In this document: in pieces, positions 24,243 to 25,615 of the stretch
Position numbering within the stretch: the first letter of the stretch is position 1
Layout: each line of letters starts with the position of its first letter
Source: Bacteroidota bacterium
GTDB lineage: Bacteria; Bacteroidota; Bacteroidia; B-17B0; Aurantibacillaceae
NCBI GenBank assembly: GCA_016194985.1
Contig: JACQAK010000007.1
Coordinates: forward strand, 1 to 64,000
Length of the DNA stretch: 64,000 bases
Reading direction: 5' to 3'
Notes under the pieces: generated by a model
What the model was told of the DNA's origin: nothing
Databases searched by the model: none
What the model saw: only the letters and a program-made list of their open reading frames with translations
Position numbers and translations under genes: made by a program

Positions 24243-24281
24243 AAAAAAAGCCATCAGCCTCATAACTGGTGGCTTTTTTAT
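24243..24281 (+). terminator. Intrinsic terminator
   Basis: aaaaaaagccatcag-cctcataa-ctggtggcttttttatt hairpin with T-tract. Confidence 0.8.
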
Positions 24282-24322
24282 TCAATTATATTTCTCATCT
24301 TTAATGAAATTTAATTTCAATC

Positions 24323-25615
24323 ATGACTTTAAAAGAACGTTACGAAGGTGTCATCAATTATTTCAAAACCAATGTTCCGGTTGCTGAAACGGAATTAAAT
24401 TACTCTAATCCTTTCGAATTAATTGTAGCCGTGATCTTATCGGCTCAATGCACCGACAAACGCATCAATCAGGTTACTCCGAAATTATTTAAGGATTATC
24501 CAACGGCAGAAGCATTGGCATCTGCCAGTTCTGATACCATTTTTAATTACATAAGAAGTGTAAGCTATCCTAATAATAAAGCAAAACATTTAGTTGAAAT
24601 GGCTAAAATGCTATTAAGAGATTTTAACGGTGTAATTCCCAGTGAAATTGATCAACTGGTAAAACTTCCGGGAGTAGGCAGAAAAACGGCCAATGTAGTA
24701 GCATCTGTTATTTATGACAAACCGGCTATGGCGGTTGACACGCATGTATTCAGAGTCTCTAACCGATTGGGACTAACTAAAGCCAAAACACCTTTGCAAA
24801 GCGAACAGCAACTCATGAAATATATTCCAAAAGAATATGTTGCTACAGCTCATCATTGGTTGATTTTGCATGGCCGATACACCTGTCTGGCCAGAACACC
24901 CAAATGCGACGTGTGTCCTCTGACGGAGTGGTGCCAGTACTTTAAAACAAAGGTGATAAACAAAAATGCACCTCATTCGTTATCTACTAAAAAAGAAACC
25001 ATGGCAAAAAAAGAAACCACAACAAAAAAAACGGCTGCTAAAAAAGCAGTAGTAAAAAAAACAGCTACCAAAAAAACAACAGCCGTTGCCCCGGCTAAAA
25101 AAAATACGACTAAGGCTCATGTTAAAGAGCCTGTTAAAGCAGATAAATTTGTAGCCCACAGCACCTCGTTAAAAGCAGGAGATAAGGCCCCCGCTTTCAA
25201 AGCCAAAGATCAAAACGGAAAATTGATTTCATTAAATGACTTAAAAGGAAAAAATGTTATTCTTTATTTTTATCCTAAAGACAACACACCGACCTGTACT
25301 TTGGAAGCCTGTAGTTTAAGAGATGAACATCAGTACTTAAGCAAAAAAAATTATGTCGTACTGGGCGTGAGTGCCGACGACGAAAAAATGCACAAAAAAT
25401 TTGCTACAAAATTCGAGTTACCTTTTTCCCTATTAGCCGATACAGATATGACTATTATTAAGGCGTATGACGTATGGGGTATAAAACAGTTTATGGGAAA
25501 AATTTACGATGGTATCATCAGAACAACCTTTATTATTAATGAAAAAGGTGTGATCTCTCATGTGATAACGGATGTGAAAAGTAAGGAACACGGGAAACAA
25601 ATCCTGGAATTATAA
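24323..25615 (+). CDS. Fusion: endonuclease III (Nth, residues 1 to ~215) + Lys/Ala/Thr-rich H1-like linker + PrxQ/Bcp peroxiredoxin (residues ~280-430)
   Basis: Nth: 'LPGVGRKTANVVASVIYDKPAMAVDTHVFRVSNRLGL' and FeS motif C-x6-C-x2-C-x5-C 'CLARTPKCDVCPLTEWC'. Linker 'AKKETTTKKTAAKKAVVKKTATKKTTAVAPAKKNTTKAHVKEPVK'. Prx: 'FYPKDNTPTCTLEACSLRDEH...VLGVSADDEKMHKKFATKFELPFSLLADTD...YDVWGIKQFMGKIYDGIIRTTFII'. Internal ATG at 25001. Confidence 0.9.
   Translation: MTLKERYEGVINYFKTNVPVAETELNYSNPFELIVAVILSAQCTDKRINQVTPKLFKDYPTAEALASASSDTIFNYIRSVSYPNNKAKHLVEMAKMLLRDFNGVIPSEIDQLVKLPGVGRKTANVVASVIYDKPAMAVDTHVFRVSNRLGLTKAKTPLQSEQQLMKYIPKEYVATAHHWLILHGRYTCLARTPKCDVCPLTEWCQYFKTKVINKNAPHSLSTKKETMAKKETTTKKTAAKKAVVKKTATKKTTAVAPAKKNTTKAHVKEPVKADKFVAHSTSLKAGDKAPAFKAKDQNGKLISLNDLKGKNVILYFYPKDNTPTCTLEACSLRDEHQYLSKKNYVVLGVSADDEKMHKKFATKFELPFSLLADTDMTIIKAYDVWGIKQFMGKIYDGIIRTTFIINEKGVISHVITDVKSKEHGKQILEL

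Follow-up and report, generated by a model that had tools for sequence, protein, structure and literature searches.

Endonuclease III (Nth) and the PrxQ/Bcp peroxiredoxins are both known enzymes, and yeast Dot5/nTpx is an earlier example of an atypical 2-Cys peroxiredoxin located in the DNA compartment. Dot5/nTpx is a nuclear thiol peroxidase that was proposed to prevent DNA oxidation and shows a genome-stability phenotype together with Tsa1 (PMC2688748). Genes that also give a shorter in-frame protein, translated from an internal start, are known too, with mycobacteriophage Ms6 lysA and archaeal Cas11b as examples; there the shorter protein belongs to the same enzyme or complex (PMC3111421, PMC11899642). 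Histone H1-like (HC2) and Lys/Ala-rich bacterial tails are the closest described counterparts of the basic segment discussed below.

We analyzed a gene in a window of 64,000 nucleotides (the whole stretch of DNA under analysis, contig C123) from a 4.2 Mb genome in 236 contigs, which belongs to a genus of uncultured Bacteroidota. An earlier note had proposed that a single ORF here joins Nth to PrxQ/Bcp. Translation of the window gives exactly this, one uninterrupted frame of 430 codons at 24323-25615 on the plus strand. It opens with a complete Nth that bears an extension of 19 residues; a tail rich in Lys, Ala, and Thr comes next, and the frame closes with a PrxQ/Bcp peroxiredoxin, also complete. 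We regard it as practically certain that the fused ORF is real, and the gene probably yields two proteins guarding DNA against oxidation. The features of the locus are as follows.

24244-24279, plus strand: intrinsic terminator-like hairpin of the upstream gene, 14 bp (-18.6 kcal/mol, z = -6.3, 0/200 shuffles as good)
24287-24294, plus strand: candidate Bacteroidota -7 promoter element TATATTTC, one mismatch to the TAHHTTTG consensus
24323-24943, plus strand: endonuclease III (Nth) domain, codons 1-207 (K121, D139, four FeS cysteines; profiles, alignment, structure matches)
24944-25000, plus strand: Nth C-terminal extension, codons 208-226, without a stop (open in 16 of 17 genus members)
24958-24984, plus strand: stretch AAACAAAnnnnnnCCTCATTCGTTATC, with few synonymous changes (13/16 fused genes)
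25001-25003, plus strand: internal ATG, candidate start of a second product, H1-like tail-PrxQ (kept in 16/16 fused genes, in G506 and G035, and in the G006 counterpart)
25001-25147, plus strand: Lys/Ala/Thr-rich H1-like tail of PrxQ, codons 227-275 (composition; counterpart on separate PrxQ genes)
25157-25612, plus strand: PrxQ/Bcp atypical 2-Cys peroxiredoxin domain, codons 279-430 (C325, C330; profiles, alignment, structure matches)
25613-25615, plus strand: TAA stop of the fused frame

The fusion gene stands alone, as the strong terminator hairpin ends the upstream gene and separates the two. The near-consensus -7 element (Bacteroidota consensus TAHHTTTG; PMC6847099) lies 36-29 nt upstream of the fusion-gene ATG, and an exact TAnnTTTG is found 28-31 nt upstream of the nth start in the related loci L002, L004, and L005.

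The earlier claim that both enzymes are complete is borne out by the family models and by the catalytic residues. All Pfam matches exceed the curated cut-offs (HhH-GPD at residues 35-170, HHH at 101-128, the EndIII FeS motif at 188-204, and AhpC-TSA at 286-413). The full-length NCBIfam equivalog model for nth (TIGR01083) scores 257.4 bits against a cut-off of 211.7 over residues 6-204, and the thioredoxin-dependent thiol peroxidase model PRK09437 (NF006960) scores 173.5 against 140 bits over residues 282-429. In a 15-sequence alignment, the catalytic K121 and D139 and the FeS ligands C188, C195, C198, and C204 of Nth are invariant, and so are the peroxidatic C325 of PrxQ (in the TPxC motif) and the resolving C330 five residues on. 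Sequence matches to solved structures include 2abk, 1orn, and others for Nth and two Bcp structures (5enu, 3drn). With the HhH, the catalytic Lys/Asp pair, and the four FeS cysteines in place, the Nth half is predicted to be a glycosylase/AP-lyase acting on oxidised pyrimidines. An AlphaFold model made with 15 close rows described the Nth half poorly (mean pLDDT 57.8) and was set aside. Apart from the fusion gene, no Nth and no PrxQ of the source genome scores above the family cut-offs. A second Nth-like protein of the same genome (L136, G000:C49:14516-15067) reaches 162 bits, below the nth cut-off.

Compared with E. coli Nth (2abk), the fusion aligns over the whole length and shares the HhH-GPD fold, the catalytic Lys/Asp, and the [4Fe-4S] cysteines, but it adds the C-terminal extension, the basic tail, and the peroxiredoxin. 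With the PrxQ/Bcp thioredoxin-dependent peroxiredoxins it shares a complete atypical 2-Cys domain above the family cut-off, whereas the basic N-terminal tail and the Nth fusion are features of the protein here. Unlike the fusion, Dot5/nTpx is eukaryotic, nuclear, and not joined to a repair enzyme. In contrast to what is described for Ms6 lysA and Cas11b, the candidate shorter product here is a different, complete enzyme. Both enzymes and the dual-start principle are known, but keyword searches of the open-access literature found no paper describing an Nth-PrxQ fusion or an H1-tailed PrxQ, nor the combination or a maintained Nth fusion.

The segment between the enzymes had been read as a strongly basic, H1-like linker. 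Its composition agrees with this (K 31%, A 21%, T 19%; net charge +13 over 52 residues), but its origin as a linker does not hold. Family members outside the genus have two genes, nth and then tail-PrxQ, which identifies the segment as PrxQ's own N-terminal tail; it also occurs sometimes alone, as an H1-like ORF. The likeness to H1 lies in composition and in HC2 matches of 15-21 bits, under the Pfam gathering score of 40, and the tail here is attached to an enzyme, unlike the HC2 and Lys/Ala-rich bacterial tails that it resembles. Judged by its composition, we lean slightly toward DNA binding by the tail in vivo. The tail is unstable in sequence: all 29 of its well-filled codon columns have changed, at 4-5 changes per site, as have all 75 four-fold sites. 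A separate H1-like ORF lies between nth and prxQ in ten family genomes. Examples (MAKK..., several ending in acidic EEE) are L024 2188-2670, L068 972-1427, and L102 1064-1735 in nth orientation, which abut or overlap the prxQ start in another frame and arose because the tail was repeatedly split off from PrxQ. A stepwise order with nth, H1, and prxQ as three ORFs from the outset was dropped because the family tree makes the three-ORF state derived, by about four splits from tail-PrxQ.

The genus relatives are metagenome-assembled genomes (for example, Bacteroidetes bacterium UBA5697). Seventeen of 20 genomes carry the locus, and 16 of these 17 are fused in one frame (one is cut by a contig end), so that close relatives do not all encode separate genes with a stop before 25001, the finding that would have counted against the earlier proposal. 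The remaining one, G006, is split. Three genomes, G002, G009, and G019 (96, 89, and 76% complete), are without a strong match to the locus, through loss or an assembly gap. The three-part architecture is therefore shared by 15 other genus members, and it recurs in G035 and G506, two further, independent fusions that are placed apart on the family tree. In G035, a net 11-nt difference upstream of the start relative to its sister G020 puts the overlap in frame. In the nearest other genus (G024), a TAA is followed by a separate ATG. Among the 87 genomes searched in the rest of the family, nth usually precedes a separate gene for the basic tail and PrxQ, which often overlaps nth in another frame. 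Four genomes of other genera or families (G066, G078, G090, and G023) had appeared fused by frame length, and stops were found in each. Outside the family, no nth frame exceeds 306 residues among the approximately 155 best nth matches listed in the class, and PrxQ frames in the class are mostly 150-190 residues. In another class of the phylum, L127 (G314:C189) has nth in a 418-residue frame with a different extension that contains Cys pairs (..YYCQTHDGYF..IACPTCGSMNVF..). Of the 68 listed out-of-family genomes in which rows for both were compared, 23 have prxQ on the nth strand no more than 1 kb downstream of nth.

From this distribution, the nth-prxQ neighbourhood is old, the tail is a family trait, and the fusion belongs to the genus and to two single genomes. 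Because the neighbourhood is frequent in the class, a functional link may extend beyond the genus. A family tree of 59 Nth+PrxQ sequences, from a quick search and with several open forks, places the pair of nth and tail-PrxQ as the inferred ancestral state at the family base. On this tree the full fusion was gained about three times and lost once, in G006, which is nested inside the fused clade and reverted to two genes. The fusion is real and old within the genus, and by the tree it arose from the nth, tail-prxQ pair by loss of the reading-frame boundary.

The earlier note had offered, as an alternative, that the internal ATG at 25001 starts a second H1-tail-PrxQ product. This candidate is now the better supported part of that interpretation, because no fused relative has lost the ATG and the re-split gene starts at the corresponding position. 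The ATG stands just upstream of the basic tail in 16/16 fused genes, usually as the sole ATG of the linker, and is also present in both independent fusions; the separate tail-PrxQ of G006 has its initial Met at the matching position. It is kept while the surrounding linker turns over, since every other well-filled tail codon shows change. In a neutral simulation on the genus tree, the ATG survived in all 16 lineages in 0/4000 runs at each of four rates. The conserved internal start codon that marks an in-frame nested (dual-start) gene is thus present. The context of the ATG is A-rich (58% over -15 to -1 compared with 39% at other in-frame ATGs, and A at -12 in 15/16), which is partly forced by Lys codons. 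It resembles that of efficiently translated genes of Flavobacterium johnsoniae, a member of the Bacteroidota in which A at -12/-13 and -3 favours initiation (PMC6847099). An internal promoter before 25001 was rejected, as TAnnTTTG occurs upstream of the internal ATG in only 5/16 fused genes. On these grounds we consider it likely that the second product is made.

The stretch between Nth and the internal ATG is open in 16 of 17 genus members. Under neutral simulation on the genus tree, 1.5-2.5 of 16 lineages remain open at the 4-fold rate and 4.9-7.0 of 16 at 30% of it, on the premise that stops before 25001 are tolerated; a constraint on the Nth extension or translational coupling could also keep the stretch open. 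All 16 lineages stayed open in 0/1000 runs at each setting, with the 16 tips chosen as fused and G006 being the one loss seen. The open stretch and the kept ATG resist neutral decay in these comparisons, and together they speak for selection on read-through as well as on internal initiation. Within the stretch, AAACAAAnnnnnnCCTCATTCGTTATC shows unusually few synonymous changes in 13/16 fused genes, and its Ser codon is TCG in 12/12. The signal is only suggestive because one measure ranks it first and a second places it only fourth to fifth. Beyond this locus, the genus yielded a single loose match (G015:C43), and a dispersed regulatory motif was rejected, the stretch being essentially confined to this locus within the genus. 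An RNA hairpin from the Nth end to CCTCATTCGTTA appeared in some single folds and was also rejected, since its changes are uncompensated by eye.

Taken together, we think it fairly probable that the locus is a nested in-frame gene with two products, Nth-tail-PrxQ and a tail-PrxQ from the inner start. Translation from 24323 would give the full-length Nth joined via a disordered basic tail to PrxQ, and this protein is very probably made. Every Nth molecule from the fused gene carries the tail and PrxQ because there is no stop after the Nth part; it follows from the genetic code that this Nth is not releasable without PrxQ unless cleaved. Translation from 25001 would add free tail-PrxQ, allowing much more peroxidase than repair enzyme per mRNA and a putative excess of PrxQ. 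The basic tail may keep the two products on DNA irrespective of sequence; peroxide would then be removed near DNA and oxidised pyrimidines repaired there. That such co-localisation of detoxification and repair is the selected benefit is possible, if somewhat doubtful. We are more tentative still about the whole genus keeping, by selection, both an Nth welded to a DNA-tethered peroxiredoxin and a free DNA-tethered peroxiredoxin, as a repair and detoxification unit held on the chromosome.

Translational coupling could explain part of the pattern. If nth translation were kept running across the tail-prxQ start for efficient PrxQ translation, the joined protein would be a tolerated side effect of being in frame, and the open extension and the kept ATG would be explained equally well. 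In many family genomes nth overlaps the start of tail-prxQ out of frame and extends 32-140 nt beyond it, a hint of coupling between genes that are not fused. However, coupling is not universal, because in other family members the nth stop lies 4-170 nt upstream of the start without overlap. The in-frame fusion also persists across nearly the whole divergent genus and is not mixed with out-of-frame overlaps, and we consider a by-product of coupling unlikely. The single open frame and the absence of a conserved internal promoter motif would agree with one bifunctional protein of 430 residues whose internal Met is unused as a start. Such a protein would force Nth and PrxQ to a 1:1 ratio, however, and there is no obvious protein-level reason to keep a Met in a fast-changing, Lys-rich, disordered tail in 16/16 genes and two further fusions, which makes this reading improbable.

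The fusion arose three times and reverted once, and is therefore easily reached and tolerated. This would fit a neutral loss of the stop between neighbouring genes, accommodated by the flexible tail and leaving a functionless joined form, but the simulation predicts that the stop would be regained in most lineages, and we hold this account to be highly improbable. We give a negligible chance to an error of assembly or sequencing within the A-rich tract. The tract contains A6-A8 runs, and such an error is conceivable for the single-genome fusions G035 and G506, but 16 genomes that were assembled separately, and whose linkers differ, share the frame. Neither chance nor an A-run indel can account for the fusion in the genus, because the frame recurs in 15 other species, each assembled separately.

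If the nested two-product gene is correct, peroxide defence directly at DNA becomes testable in a bacterium, and the natural fused, split, and re-split versions can be compared. It would also show plainly how two neighbouring genes can become a single gene with two products, in a phylum that is not known to use Shine-Dalgarno signals. In the re-split locus of G006 (L018), Nth keeps a long Lys-rich C-terminal extension, and the separate tail-PrxQ gene comes next in another frame.
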